DNA from: Ramlibacter henchirensis
GTDB lineage: Bacteria; Pseudomonadota; Gammaproteobacteria; Burkholderiales; Burkholderiaceae_C
Direction of reading: 5' to 3'
Assembly (NCBI RefSeq): GCF_004682015.1
Contig: NZ_SMLM01000003.1
Coordinates: forward strand, 558,001 to 622,000
Length of the DNA: 64,000 nucleotides
Shown: positions 10,108 to 64,000 of the stretch, piece by piece
How the letters are laid out: every line of letters starts with the position of its first letter
How positions within the stretch are numbered: the stretch's first letter is position 1
Made by a program: the position numbers and the translations under genes
The notes under the pieces: generated by a model
The model's database searches: none
Seen by the model: only the letters and a program-made list of their open reading frames with translations
Told to the model about the DNA's origin: nothing

Positions 10108-10136
10108 GGGCGGGTACTCACCGGCCCTTTTTTTTT
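10108..10136 (+). terminator. Leader terminator (attenuator) upstream of rimP
   Basis: GGGCGGGT (10108-10115) pairs with ACCGGCCC (10120-10127) around a four-base loop, with one G-G mismatch. Nine T follow at once (10128-10136), a classic intrinsic terminator shape. It lies about 15 bases after the predicted transcription start and before the rimP start, so it terminates or attenuates the operon itself. Premature terminators in rimP leaders are known in other Proteobacteria; control by NusA is inference. Confidence 0.7.
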
Positions 10137-59087: not shown

Positions 59088-61190
59088 TCAGCCGTTGAAC
59101 CCCTTGCCTTCGGCGACCAGCTTCCTGATCAGCGGCGCCGGCTCCCAGAACTTCGCGTCGTCGCGCGGGTTCTGCTGGAAGCGCTTCATGGCCTGCATCA
59201 CGTTGAACAGGCCCACCTGGTCGGCGTACAGCATCGGGCCGCCGCGGTGCACCGGGAAGCCGTAACCCGTGAGGTAGACCATGTCGATGTCGCTGGCCTT
59301 GGACGCGATGCCCTCCTCCAGGATGTGCGCGCCTTCGTTGACCAGCGAGAACACCAGGCGCTGCACGATCTCGTCGTCGGAGATCTTGCGCGGCTCGATG
59401 CCCTGCTCCTTGCGGTGCGCCGCCACCATGTCCTCGACCAGCCTGGACGGGATGGCGTCGCGCTTGCCTTGCTGGTAGTCGTACCAGCCGGCACCGGTCT
59501 TCTGGCCGAAGCGCCCGAGCTCGCACAGCTTGTCGGCGGTCCTGCTGTACTTCATGTCCGGCCGCTCCTGCGCCCGACGCTTGCGGATCGCCCAGCCGAT
59601 GTCGTTGCCGGCCAGGTCGCCCATGCGGAAGGGGCCCATGGCGAAACCGAACTTCTCGATCGCCCTGTCCACCTGCTGCGGCGTGGCGCCTTCGTCCAGC
59701 AGGAAGCCGGCCTGGCGGCTGTACTGCTCGATCATGCGGTTGCCGATGAAGCCGTCGCAGACGCCGGAGACCACGGCGGTCTTCTTGATCTTCTTGGCGA
59801 TGGCCATCACGGTGGCGAGCACGTCCTTGGCCGTCTTCTCGCCGCGCACCACCTCCAGCAGCTTCATCACGTTGGCCGGGCTGAAGAAGTGCATGCCGAC
59901 CACGTCCTGGGGCCGCTTGGTGAACGAGGCGATCTTGTTGACGTCCAGCGTGGAGGTGTTGCTGGCCAGGATCGCGCCGGGCTTCATCACCTTGTCCAGC
60001 GTCTCGAAGACCGTCTGCTTGACGCCCATGTCCTCGAACACCGCCTCGATCACCAGGTCCGCGTCCTTCAGGTCCTCGTACTTGAGCGTGGTGGACAGCA
60101 GGGACATGCGCTGGTCGTACTTGTCCTGTTTGAGCTTGCCCTTCTTGACCTGGGCCTCGTAGTTCTTGCGCATGGTGGCGGTGCCGCGGTCCAGCGCTTC
60201 CTGCTTCATCTCGAGGATGGTCACCGGGATGCCGGCGTTGAGGAAGTTCATCGAGATGCCGCCCCCCATGGTGCCCGCGCCGATGACCGCCACCTTCCTG
60301 ATCTCGCGCTTGGGCGTGTCCTCGGGGACGTCGGGGATCTTCGAGGCGGCGCGCTCGGCCATGAAGATGTGCCGCAGGGCGCGGCTCTCGGGCGTGAGCA
60401 TCAGGTTCATGAACGTCTCGCGTTCGGCCAGCATGCCCTCGTCGAACTTCTTCTTGGTCGCCGCTTCGACGGCGTCGACGCACTTGACGGGCGCCGGGAA
60501 GTTCTTGGCCATGCCCTTGACCATGTTGCGCGCGAACTGGAAGTACGCGTCGCCCATCGGGTGCTTGCAAGGCAGGTCTCGCACGCGCGGCAGCGGGCGC
60601 TTGCCGGCCACTTCGCGGGCGAAGGCCAGGGCCTCGTCCAGCAGCGAGTCGGCCGACTTGGCCAGGCGGTCGAACAGCTTCTGGCCCGGCTGGGCGAACA
60701 GGAGCTCGCTCTTGACGGCCTCGCCCGAGACGATCATGTTGAGCGCCGTCTCCACGCCCATCACCCGCGGCAGGCGCATCGTGCCGCCGGCGCCGGGGAT
60801 CAGGCCCAGCTTCACCTCGGGCAGCGCCACGTTGCAGTCGGGCGCGGCGATGCGGTAGTGGCAGCCCAGCGAGAGCTCCAGCCCGCCGCCCATGGCGATC
60901 GAATGCACCGCGGCCACGACCGGCTTTGTTGAGTTCTCGACCGCCAGGATCACCGACAGCAGGTTGGGTTCGGCGATCGCCTTGGGCGACCCGAACTCCC
61001 GGATGTCCGCGCCGCCCGAGAACGCCTTGCCGGCGCCGGTGATGACGATGGCTTTCACGGCCGCATCGGCCTGCGCCTTCTCCAGGCCGGCGGTGATGCC
61101 CTGCCGGGTGGCCAGGCCCAGCCCGTTGACCGGCGGGTTGTTCAGCGTGATGACGGCGACGTCGCCATGCACCTTGTATTCAGCGGTCAT
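59088..61190 (-). CDS. Multifunctional enoyl-CoA hydratase / 3-hydroxyacyl-CoA dehydrogenase (FadB/FadJ-like)
   Basis: 700 residues. The N-terminal crotonase domain (1 to about 190) has SGGADIREF, GGGLE with E105, and LPEVKLG with E125, the two hydratase glutamates. The HAD domain starts near 297 with the NAD motif VIGAGTMGG (302-310); the HFFSPANVMKL region holds the catalytic His; the C-terminal dimerisation domain follows. Steps 2 and 3 of beta-oxidation. First gene of the minus-strand run, preceded by a palindromic operator candidate and GAAGGAAG as RBS. Confidence 0.94.
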   Translation of the reverse strand: MTAEYKVHGDVAVITLNNPPVNGLGLATRQGITAGLEKAQADAAVKAIVITGAGKAFSGGADIREFGSPKAIAEPNLLSVILAVENSTKPVVAAVHSIAMGGGLELSLGCHYRIAAPDCNVALPEVKLGLIPGAGGTMRLPRVMGVETALNMIVSGEAVKSELLFAQPGQKLFDRLAKSADSLLDEALAFAREVAGKRPLPRVRDLPCKHPMGDAYFQFARNMVKGMAKNFPAPVKCVDAVEAATKKKFDEGMLAERETFMNLMLTPESRALRHIFMAERAASKIPDVPEDTPKREIRKVAVIGAGTMGGGISMNFLNAGIPVTILEMKQEALDRGTATMRKNYEAQVKKGKLKQDKYDQRMSLLSTTLKYEDLKDADLVIEAVFEDMGVKQTVFETLDKVMKPGAILASNTSTLDVNKIASFTKRPQDVVGMHFFSPANVMKLLEVVRGEKTAKDVLATVMAIAKKIKKTAVVSGVCDGFIGNRMIEQYSRQAGFLLDEGATPQQVDRAIEKFGFAMGPFRMGDLAGNDIGWAIRKRRAQERPDMKYSRTADKLCELGRFGQKTGAGWYDYQQGKRDAIPSRLVEDMVAAHRKEQGIEPRKISDDEIVQRLVFSLVNEGAHILEEGIASKASDIDMVYLTGYGFPVHRGGPMLYADQVGLFNVMQAMKRFQQNPRDDAKFWEPAPLIRKLVAEGKGFNG

Positions 61191-61213: not shown

Positions 61214-61237
61214 GAACGATCGTTCGATTCGATTCTA
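61214..61237 (-). promoter_or_regulatory. Palindromic operator and -10 before the FadB-like gene
   Basis: The perfect 12-bp palindrome GAACGATCGTTC (61214-61225) lies just downstream of a minus-strand TAGAAT (61237-61232), where it would block early transcription. The -35 region is not convincing. The form suggests a TetR-family repressor, as often controls fatty-acid genes, but no regulator gene is in the window. Confidence 0.6.
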
Positions 61238-61377: not shown

Positions 61378-61421
61378 CAGTTGCGCAAGACAAATCAATC
61401 ACTATCGAGGAGGGAATTTCA

Positions 61422-62087
61422 ATGCAGGCCATCCAGACCGTCTCCACCGTCGCAGCGCGCCAGCAGGTCATCCCGCTCGAGCCGCCGAGGCCGGCCGCGG
61501 CGCAGCTGAGCATTCGCGTGCTGCACACGCCCGAGGAGCGGATGGAGATTGCGCACCTGCGCCAGCACGCCGATTTCCGTTCCGAGTACGAACTCGATCC
61601 CGGGCTCGCGGCCTTTGAGTCGGTGAAGGATGCGCTGGGCATCGTGATGGCGATCAGCCTCGACGACGAGGTGATCGCCACGATCCGTTTCATTCCCACA
61701 GGGCACGGCGTGACGCTCACCGAGCGCTTCTGGCCCGACCTGATCACGCAGCCGGCCATCCTCGGCTCGACCAGCTGGGAGGTGGGGCGCCTGGTCATGG
61801 CCCCGGAACACCGCCGGGCCGACCTGCTGCCTCGATGCATGTCGATGGCTCTGGTCGAATTGCTGCAGCTGGTGAAGGTGGACCACATGCACGCGTCCTG
61901 CCTCACGGCGATGACGCGGCTGTACCGCCGCTTCGGCTTCGGCACGCACGCCGTCCGCAGCAAGGGCGGCAAGCACTGCGCGCTGATCCATGGCACGGTC
62001 GCCGAAGTGGCGAAGGCCCTGAAAGTGTCGATCCCGGTTCGTGCCCGCACCGTTGCGTCGTACGAAGAGGCTCACCTGCTACAGTGA
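61422..62087 (+). CDS. LuxI/FeeM-like GNAT N-acyl synthase (candidate signal synthase)
   Basis: 221 residues, GNAT fold. Features recall LuxI and the N-acyl amino acid synthase FeeM: R47, then IATIRFIPTGHG with R89 (compare LuxI RLLPT), and SWEVGRLVMAPEHRR with E120 and R123 (compare LuxI E..R). ALVELLQLVKVDHMHASCLT and the RFGFGTHA region follow as in long-chain acyl transferases. GAGGAGGG precedes the ATG. The hybrid kinase starts 112 bases downstream. It may join an acyl chain from ACP or CoA to an amino acid or related acceptor. The product is unknown; a plain acetyltransferase is possible. Confidence 0.72.
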   Translation: MQAIQTVSTVAARQQVIPLEPPRPAAAQLSIRVLHTPEERMEIAHLRQHADFRSEYELDPGLAAFESVKDALGIVMAISLDDEVIATIRFIPTGHGVTLTERFWPDLITQPAILGSTSWEVGRLVMAPEHRRADLLPRCMSMALVELLQLVKVDHMHASCLTAMTRLYRRFGFGTHAVRSKGGKHCALIHGTVAEVAKALKVSIPVRARTVASYEEAHLLQ

Positions 62088-62199
62088 GCTCTGCCGCAAG
62101 AACAAAGACAAAGCGAGGGAGGATGGGCAGGCCGCGGGGCCGCTCCGGCGGCAGCGGGCGCCGCGTCGGCAGCCTTCCCCTTCGCGCCAGGAACTCCGC

Positions 62200-64000
62200 A
62201 TGAAGTCGTACCTGCGCAGGCTGCTCGACCGCTACCGCGAGCACCACGACATGGACCGGCCGCTGCTCCAGTGGATCGGTGTCGTGGGCTGCATTGCCTT
62301 CCCGCTGTTCTATGCGATCCGGCTCGCAACCGGCTCGCCGGGCTGGGACGACCTGCCGTTCCGGGCCGTGGCCGCGGTGCTCTGCCTGGGTCTGGCCGTG
62401 CGACGCTGGTGGCCTGCCACCTTGGCGCCGTACTACATCGGCTACTCGTATGGCGTGGTGTTCTACTGCCTGTCCTTCCTGCTGTCCTTCAGCATGCTGA
62501 AGAACCTGGGCGGCACGCCCTACGTCGTGAACATGGTGATCGGGGCGGTGCTGATCATCCTGCTGGCCGACTGGCGCAACACCATCGTCATGCTGGTGGG
62601 CGGCTACCTGCTCGCCATGCTGGCCCTGTGGCTCACGGAGCCGGCCGCTCACATCCCGCGGGACTTCGTGTTCGCCGCAGCGGGCTCGGTGCTGCTAGTG
62701 GTCGGCGGGGCGCTTTCGCACCAAGGCCAGAAACGGGTCGAGCTGCAGCGCATGCGTCGCGTCTACTCCGGGCTCGCAGGTTCGGTGGCCCACGAGATGC
62801 GCAGTCCGCTCGCCCAGGTCCGCCATGCGCTGGACAACATCGCCGGCGCGCTGACGCAGTCGCAGTCGGCGAGCGGGACGCGATTGGCTCCTGAACAGCT
62901 GCGGGTGGTGCTCGCCACCGTCCAGCAAGGCCGGGATGCGGTCAGCCGCGGCCTGCAGGCCATCGACCTCACGCTGCAGCAGTTGCAGCCCGCGCCGCTG
63001 GAACCCGGCCGCGTCCAGCCCGTCCGCGCCCTCGCTTGTGTGCAGCAGGCTGTGCAGGCCTATGCCTACCAGGACGAGGGCCAGCGCGCGCGCGTCCTCG
63101 TGGAAGACCGCGGGGACTTTGTCTTCCGCGGCGACCCGACGGCGCTGGAACTCGTGCTCTTCAACCTGCTGAAGAACGCGCTCTACTACGTTCCCCTGCA
63201 CCCCGTGATGGCCGTCACGATCACGGTGGCCGCCGACCCCACGCCGCGCATCGTCGTGCGCGACACGGGCCCGGGCATCGCCCCCGCCTTGCTGCCGCGC
63301 CTTTTCGACGAGTTCGAGACTGCGGGCAAGGCAGAAGGGACAGGGCTCGGCCTGACGTTCTGCCGCCGCGCCATGCGCGCGATGGGCGGCGAGATCGGCT
63401 GCCGGACAGAGCTCGGATCGTTCACCGAGTTCACGCTGACCTTTCCGCCAATGGACGCCAGCGCCGCCGCGCGCGCGAGCACGGGGCCGCAGGCCGTCCT
63501 GACCGGCAAGACCCTGCTCGTCGTCGACGACCAGGCCCTGAACCGTTCCATCCTGCGCGCCCTGTGCCTTACCTTGGACCTGCACGTGATCGAGGCCGAG
63601 CATGGCCAGCAAGTGCTGGACCTGCTGCGCGGTGGCACCGTCCCGGATGCGATCCTGATGGACGTGAACATGCCGGGGCTCGACGGACTGCAGACCACCC
63701 GGGCGATGCGCGCCCTGCCCGGCCGAGCGGGCCGCGTGCCGGTCGTGGCCGTCACGGCCAACGATTCACCCGCCGTGCAGGAGACGGCCTCGGCAGCGGG
63801 CCTGCAGGCCGTGCTGGCAAAGCCGGTGGACGCGGCTGCGCTGGGGCGCACGCTCTCGCGCGTTCTCGCGCCCCTGGCCGGCGAACTGACGTCGTCGCCC
63901 GTGCCCCCGGACTCGCCCGCGGCGCTGCTGGACGCGGGTCGCATCGACGACTTCCGCCGGATGGGGCTGCTGGACGAACTGGTGCCCGAATCGCTGACCG
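62200..64000 (+). CDS. CqsS-like hybrid sensor histidine kinase (partial, runs off the window)
   Basis: Open from ATG 62200 to the window end: 600 codons, no stop. Six predicted helices (about 24-180) resemble the CqsS sensor region, with WIGVVG...FPLFY, FRAVAAVLCLGLAVRRW and VLIILLADWRNTIVML. H box SVAHEMRSPL (H198), N box LFNLLKNALYY (N326), G boxes DTGPGI (355-360) and GTGLGL (380-385). The receiver domain has D443/D444, phospho-acceptor D488 (LMDVNMPG), T519 and K541. The last residues look like the start of an HPt domain. Expected to read a diffusible signal and pass phosphate to a regulator outside the window. Confidence 0.88.
   Translation, partial: MKSYLRRLLDRYREHHDMDRPLLQWIGVVGCIAFPLFYAIRLATGSPGWDDLPFRAVAAVLCLGLAVRRWWPATLAPYYIGYSYGVVFYCLSFLLSFSMLKNLGGTPYVVNMVIGAVLIILLADWRNTIVMLVGGYLLAMLALWLTEPAAHIPRDFVFAAAGSVLLVVGGALSHQGQKRVELQRMRRVYSGLAGSVAHEMRSPLAQVRHALDNIAGALTQSQSASGTRLAPEQLRVVLATVQQGRDAVSRGLQAIDLTLQQLQPAPLEPGRVQPVRALACVQQAVQAYAYQDEGQRARVLVEDRGDFVFRGDPTALELVLFNLLKNALYYVPLHPVMAVTITVAADPTPRIVVRDTGPGIAPALLPRLFDEFETAGKAEGTGLGLTFCRRAMRAMGGEIGCRTELGSFTEFTLTFPPMDASAAARASTGPQAVLTGKTLLVVDDQALNRSILRALCLTLDLHVIEAEHGQQVLDLLRGGTVPDAILMDVNMPGLDGLQTTRAMRALPGRAGRVPVVAVTANDSPAVQETASAAGLQAVLAKPVDAAALGRTLSRVLAPLAGELTSSPVPPDSPAALLDAGRIDDFRRMGLLDELVPESLT

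Follow-up and report, generated by a model that had tools for sequence, protein, structure and literature searches.

We analysed a 64,000-nucleotide stretch of the 4.79-Mb genome of Ramlibacter henchirensis (contig NZ_SMLM01000003.1, positions 558,001-622,000; hereafter the window), in which a gene for a FeeM/LuxI-type GNAT N-acyl synthase is followed by one for a hybrid histidine kinase. The synthase gene, of the kind called type 1 below, is one open frame encoding 221 amino acids (61422..62087, plus strand). Its ATG lies at 61422, its stop ends at 62087, and a Shine-Dalgarno-like GAGGAGGGA was read from the sequence at 61407..61415. The ATG of the kinase lies on the same strand, 112 bases past the synthase stop, at 62200. 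The window holds residues 1-600 of this CqsS-type kinase (62200..64000), which in full comprises 698 amino acids (L003:2201-4297 in the host contig) and runs on to about 64296. Together, the synthase and the sensor of the kinase probably make up a system of cell-to-cell signalling that has not been described.

Families of the synthase and the kinase

Curated Pfam models placed the synthase with FeeM (PF21926; 37.5 bits, cut-off 27). Its scores fell under the cut-offs of the LuxI model Autoind_synth (PF00765; 12.7 bits, cut-off 24) and of the general Acetyltransf_1 model (18.5 bits, cut-off 20.7). By these cut-offs, the 221-residue protein is a member of the FeeM family and not of the LuxI family. 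An earlier note on this DNA had described it as a LuxI/FeeM-like synthase; on the curated models the FeeM part of that description stood, and the LuxI part did not. Nor did the protein fall in an ordinary acetyltransferase family, the outcome named there as adverse, as it scored above the FeeM cut-off. LasI, FeeM and TofI were the top structural matches of the synthase model, which has the FeeM fold, with identities of 14-20% in the structural alignments (FeeM comparison). Residues R89, E120 and R123, singled out by the note, were found at those positions in the translation and are invariant across a 53-row alignment; we take this R...E..R pattern to represent the LuxI core residues. A search of NCBIfam with the synthase returned no families at E 10, the presence of a PEP-CTERM/exosortase acyltransferase model in that release being unconfirmed. 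The plasmid collection searched with the synthase gave no match. Judged by its family, the enzyme is most likely to produce N-acyl amino acids.

The same scores bear on two other functions. The enzyme might be an acyl-homoserine-lactone (AHL) synthase with LuxI chemistry, the kinase acting in place of a LuxR protein as the receptor of its product. There is a parallel in LuxM/LuxN, where a kinase is likewise the receptor and the enzyme is an unrelated one. The score of 12.7 bits against the LuxI cut-off of 24, with the FeeM cut-off reached, makes this unlikely. Alternatively, the GNAT protein might acylate the kinase or another protein, acting as a regulator and not as a signal maker. We find this scarcely credible: the FeeM cut-off was reached, acyl-synthase structures rank first among the structural matches, and Acetyltransf_1 stayed under its cut-off.

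Residues 1-188 of the kinase (62200..62763, plus strand) constitute a sensor domain of the CqsS/LqsS type. Its model contains six long helices (20-44, 52-66, 73-101, 106-122, 125-146, and 154-193), which we take as membrane-spanning. Aligned by hhalign, a six-row profile of this sensor matched ten CqsS/LqsS-type sensors over 189 columns with one gap (P 99.9, E 7.4e-33). The comparison set included two Vibrio kinases (L119 and L120) with an adjoining CqsA-like gene. The resemblance to CqsS claimed in the note is borne out by this homology. The sensor also groups with CqsS/LqsS sensors, and the note's other ground for refutation, a sensor clustering elsewhere, did not arise in this comparison. 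Five proteins among the homologues listed carry the JGI name CqsS. Searched alone against NCBIfam, the window sensor gave no match, and that of its host paralogue gave one weak match under cut-off. Searching PDB sequences with the profile of the sensor returned a viral polyprotein as the sole match (E 0.17), which was rejected.

Downstream of the sensor, the only Pfam domains over cut-off in the window kinase were an ATPase and a receiver. The HATPase domain spans residues 311-416 (63130..63447; PF02518, 76.7 bits, E 2e-21), and the receiver spans residues 440-548 with D488 (63517..63843; PF00072, 74.9 bits, E 7e-21), both on the plus strand. The putative phospho-accepting H198, within VAHEMRSPL, is encoded at 62791..62793 (plus strand), where HisKA reached 13.4 bits (cut-off 26.9); HisKA was under cut-off in both host kinases. 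An HPt-like H626 lies near the C-terminus. Pfam did not call an HPt domain in the window kinase, and in the paralogue the score was 23.5 bits, just under the cut-off of 24.6. The best NCBIfam score of the whole kinase was to LuxN, via the kinase core and far under the cut-off of that model.

Pairing and sensor descent

A neighbourhood survey proposed in the earlier note established that the adjacency is real. All 70 rows with a FeeM-like domain, from 66 loci, have a kinase homologue no more than 1 kb downstream and in the same orientation. After dropping seven duplicate rows and two second pieces, these represent 61 distinct genes, each of them paired (61/61). Because every row has its homologous kinase downstream, chance does not account for the arrangement. 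The linkage was kept at every synthase gene checked, so that the absence of conserved linkage, which the note had set out as grounds for refutation, did not materialise. Spacing is within 300 bases in 57 of the 61 genes and about 740-750 bases in the other four (L088, L091, L154, and L167). In two of these, synthase and kinase are separated by a gene for a PF14518 iron-containing redox enzyme (L088:6214-6885 and L091:7207-7878); reading frames in the gaps of L154 and L167 look by eye like the same gene. This enzyme possibly provides a signal-tailoring step.

Separate searches with the synthase gave the same picture. Ten of 299 genomes of the family were positive at 12 places, with the kinase next to the synthase in all 12, and a named collection yielded six loci with seven synthase genes, again all paired (7/7). 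Within the genus, the synthase is present in 43 of 60 genomes, and Ramlibacter monticola carries two synthase-kinase pairs in tandem (L008:9929-15102). In an order-wide sample of 399 genomes searched with a GNAT profile, where at most the eight best first-look candidates were scored per genome, the sole match at a threshold of E 1e-8 was the host genome itself.

We also searched with the sensor only, which was found in 16 of 369 genomes of the class, 13 of 250 of the order, and 20 of 299 of the family (the host genome being counted each time). Family genomes contained 28 sensor places, half of them strong and half weak. The 14 strong places correspond to 13 genes, one apparently cut over two contigs; 12 of these genes adjoin a FeeM-like gene and one adjoins a degraded remnant. 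The 14 weak places had a CqsA/LqsA-like gene nearby in 13 cases and neither synthase in one. None of the 28 family places had both kinds of synthase. In the class and order samples, a CqsA/LqsA-like gene was present at 14 of 29 sensor loci and a FeeM-like gene at none. Ten genes neighbouring sensor relatives were picked by length; nine scored over the cut-off of NF005526, a family of alpha-hydroxyketone-type autoinducer synthases, and the remaining one resembles an efflux transporter gene.

In a tree of 73 sensors, the 25 that are FeeM-linked form one clade with support of 100/100; the order was drawn from a midpoint root, with several forks outside this clade unresolved. As the FeeM-linked sensors form a single clade, the exchange of synthase is best read as one event. 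A plasmid of Paraburkholderia caribensis has a KAS-III-type gene immediately before that of a hybrid kinase bearing this sensor (L122:2852-6493), which suggests a possible third kind of synthase partner.

A candidate signalling module

We consider it likely that the pair in the window is a two-gene module of the quorum-sensing type, with an N-acyl signal made by the GNAT enzyme and sensed by the CqsS-type kinase. The enzyme would attach a fatty-acyl chain, supplied by acyl-acyl carrier protein or acyl-coenzyme A (CoA), to an amine; as with FeeM, this acceptor would most likely be an amino acid. The resulting lipophilic N-acyl signal would leave the cell or partition into membranes, and the adjoining kinase would detect it through its six-helix domain. 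Binding of the ligand would shift the balance between kinase and phosphatase and so alter the flow of phosphate, which could pass from H198 to the receiver D488 of the same protein, then probably to the HPt site H626 and on to a response regulator. Four points are inferences from the protein families and their pairing: that the enzyme product is the ligand of the kinase, what this product is chemically, which way signalling runs, and what it controls.

Several observations weigh against this interpretation. The HisKA and HPt regions of the window kinase remain under their Pfam cut-offs. The pair is patchily distributed, as the counts for family (10/299), congeners (43/60), and order (1/399) demonstrate. 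At 15 of the 29 sensor loci in the class and order samples, neither synthase was found within the stretch examined, some of these being on short contigs; the sensor is thus not always beside a synthase. At one locus (L123, G055:C71), a kinase of the FeeM-linked type has been kept beside a degraded synthase remnant, and it is possible that this kinase is an eavesdropper. Moreover, gene pairing can also reflect lipid homeostasis or modification of the kinase.

The product of the enzyme might instead be an N-acyl amino lipid for the envelope, with the kinase monitoring the state of the membrane and not population density. FeeM-type enzymes make long-chain, surfactant-like products, in keeping with this role. 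Divergent to the synthase lies a gene that appears fadB-like by eye (59088-61190, minus strand), and a homologue of this fatty-acid-oxidation-type gene adjoins the synthase in all seven type 1 loci looked at. A perfect palindrome, GAACGATCGTTC (window 61214-61225), present as a single copy in the window, lies some 24 bases ahead of the fadB-like gene. The palindrome GAACGGTCGTTC or GAACGAGCGTTC occupies the corresponding region of L005, L006, L008, and L089, so that five of the seven type 1 loci carry one near the start of this neighbour; none was found at the same region in L007 or L009. It is possibly the operator of a fatty-acid regulator. Both neighbour and palindrome favour an envelope role, which we nonetheless rate as decidedly unlikely given that many members of the sensor family adjoin dedicated autoinducer synthases.

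A signalling module of this kind would be assembled from parts of known kinds, and it is the combination that appears new. No description of it was found among the literature matches listed, which supports its absence from print weakly. The closest likeness is to CqsA/CqsS of Vibrio, with a homologous sensor on a hybrid kinase and an adjoining synthase gene (L119 and L120). Like CqsS, the protein combines a histidine kinase with a receiver, HATPase_c and Response_reg being over cut-off and HisKA below. It differs from that system in its GNAT N-acyl synthase, which is not of the NF005526 type, and in its HPt-like kinase end. Since the CqsA partner is absent, the pair is not a member of CqsA/CqsS; by analogy it may work in the same way, as a form of two-component quorum sensing.

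The sensor family is shared with LqsA/LqsS/LqsR and with LqsA-linked kinases of Burkholderiales, which occur in the same bacterial family and in some of the same genomes (G134, G164, and G109). Inspected by eye, these LqsA-linked kinases are mostly 420-480 amino acids long and often followed by an LqsR-like regulator of about 340 amino acids, whereas here a hybrid kinase stands without such a neighbour. The gene after the window kinase, on the other strand, looks ABC-transporter-like by eye; no LqsR-type regulator adjoins, although that gene was not searched with models. The synthase shares the Pfam family and the fold of the FeeM N-acyl amino acid synthase, and we know of no FeeM that is part of a kinase pair. 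In LuxM/LuxN and AinS/AinR, too, a hybrid kinase in the membrane responds to an N-acyl signal, and the kinase core here is most like LuxN in NCBIfam. The sensor here is of the CqsS type, and the synthase is presumably unrelated to LuxM. As in PhcB/PhcS/PhcR of Ralstonia, the synthase adjoins a sensor kinase. PhcB is a methyltransferase, unlike the GNAT synthase here; passages of PMC10653808 describe PhcR as a receiver-kinase, the domain make-up of the gene after the second pair described below.

At E 0.01 the host genome contains two FeeM-family genes, both paired with such kinases, and no further one. It gave no match to the CqsA-type NF005526 at E 1e-40 and none to the LuxR ligand-binding domain PF03472 at E 0.01. 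The two host kinases are without another synthase of these families as partner.

Second pair and its frame break

The second synthase-kinase pair of the host lies outside the window, about 13 kb from the window synthase and on the other strand (L003:12556-15744). After it come a receiver-kinase gene and an AMP-binding gene of the acyl-CoA-ligase type. Its synthase is split: the N-terminal and catalytic halves are both recognisable, with the second half at -1, and they meet at GAAAAAAAAG. The same split at the tract occurs in 43 distinct genes (47 rows, four of them duplicates). A tree of 59 synthases separated 13 of type 1, the type in the window, all in one frame, from 46 of type 2, of which 43 have the tract. 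The type 2 tract is A8, or A9 in one locus (L084), at the same codon and in the same -1 relation. The three in-frame type 2 genes (L167, L088, and L010) are nested in the tree and look like separate losses.

These features, read from sequence comparison, point to a programmed -1 frameshift at the A8 tract of type 2 synthases. Slipping back by one base on A AAA AAA would yield E-K-K-R-D, and the in-frame relative L010 has these same residues. For 35 of the 43 split genes, which were outside the set used to build the profile of the N-terminal half, that half matched at E 2.7e-9 or better. Slippage, whether by ribosome or polymerase, would occur at the tract and would probably cap the synthase made per message, at a level either fixed or regulated. 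A restart of the catalytic half was considered as a substitute for frameshifting and rejected, with no fixed start codon seen by eye.

Decay or assembly error might also break the frame. Truly broken copies do exist, as L179 and L182 have the tract with further breaks (both were dropped from the counts) and L123 retains only a remnant. No conserved hairpin was found downstream of the tract (mean z -0.25 over 43 sequences, seven below -1). Over the 36 bases that precede the tract, codon-position bias is weak (29.5, 34.2, and 36.3% of differences), so the coding nature of the N-terminal half rests on the profile matches. Against decay, the tract is common to 43 of 46 clade members at one codon and in one frame relation, with both halves matching profiles. 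The tract keeps its lysine codons as AAA, which is used for just five of the 94 lysines in four genes close by on the host contig (L003). All 41 runs of at least eight A or T in 196,842 bases, from 49 loci of the genus, sit at the tract, and the tract-bearing genomes include two that are single contigs (G272 and G1103). Taken together, we regard decay or error as very improbable.

We know of no earlier case in which a homologue of a signal synthase is made by programmed frameshifting, and no description of a frameshift in this synthase gene was found among the literature matches listed, which again supports its absence from print weakly. Automatic annotation could easily take the second-module synthase for a pseudogene. 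If the programmed frameshift is real, it would be a built-in limiter on signal supply. An A-tract joining two frames in a fixed relation is also found in dnaX and insertion sequence (IS) elements (passages of PMC3711429 and PMC1088944), the difference being that the gene here is a signal-synthase homologue. In passages of PMC1088944, Baranov et al. argue that where homologues conserve the length of a run of nine As or Ts, the run very likely serves for slippage, and they suggest that eight As can also be slipped on productively in some organisms. The main text of PMC3711429 mentions neither acetyltransferase, GNAT, nor Ramlibacter.

The two kinds of pair also mostly differ in a residue of the putative ligand pocket. 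Passages of PMC3285556 describe V. cholerae C170 and V. harveyi F175, in the last CqsS helix, as setting the choice of tail length. The V. campbellii kinase L119 has F175, and the window kinase has S173 in the aligned position (codon at 62716..62718, plus strand). Rows from A8-tract loci had Phe at this position in 45 of 49 cases (three gaps, one Val), and the other 20 rows had Ser in 13, Phe in four, Thr in two, and Tyr in one, duplicate rows being included in these counts. By analogy with CqsS, the modules may differ in the chain length that they prefer.

We lean towards a broader scheme for Comamonadaceae, with modest confidence. In this class of circuit, a CqsS-family receptor would have swapped its alpha-hydroxyketone synthase once for a LuxI/FeeM-type enzyme and then been duplicated into two modules with differing pockets (mostly Ser/Thr/Tyr versus Phe), one of them metered by a -1 frameshift. 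If so, the CqsS/LqsS receptor family could be rewired to chemically unrelated signals by exchange of synthase, and an unstudied group of soil bacteria would have a testable signal. Within the window, the sole run of at least eight A or T is a T9 run at 10128-10136.
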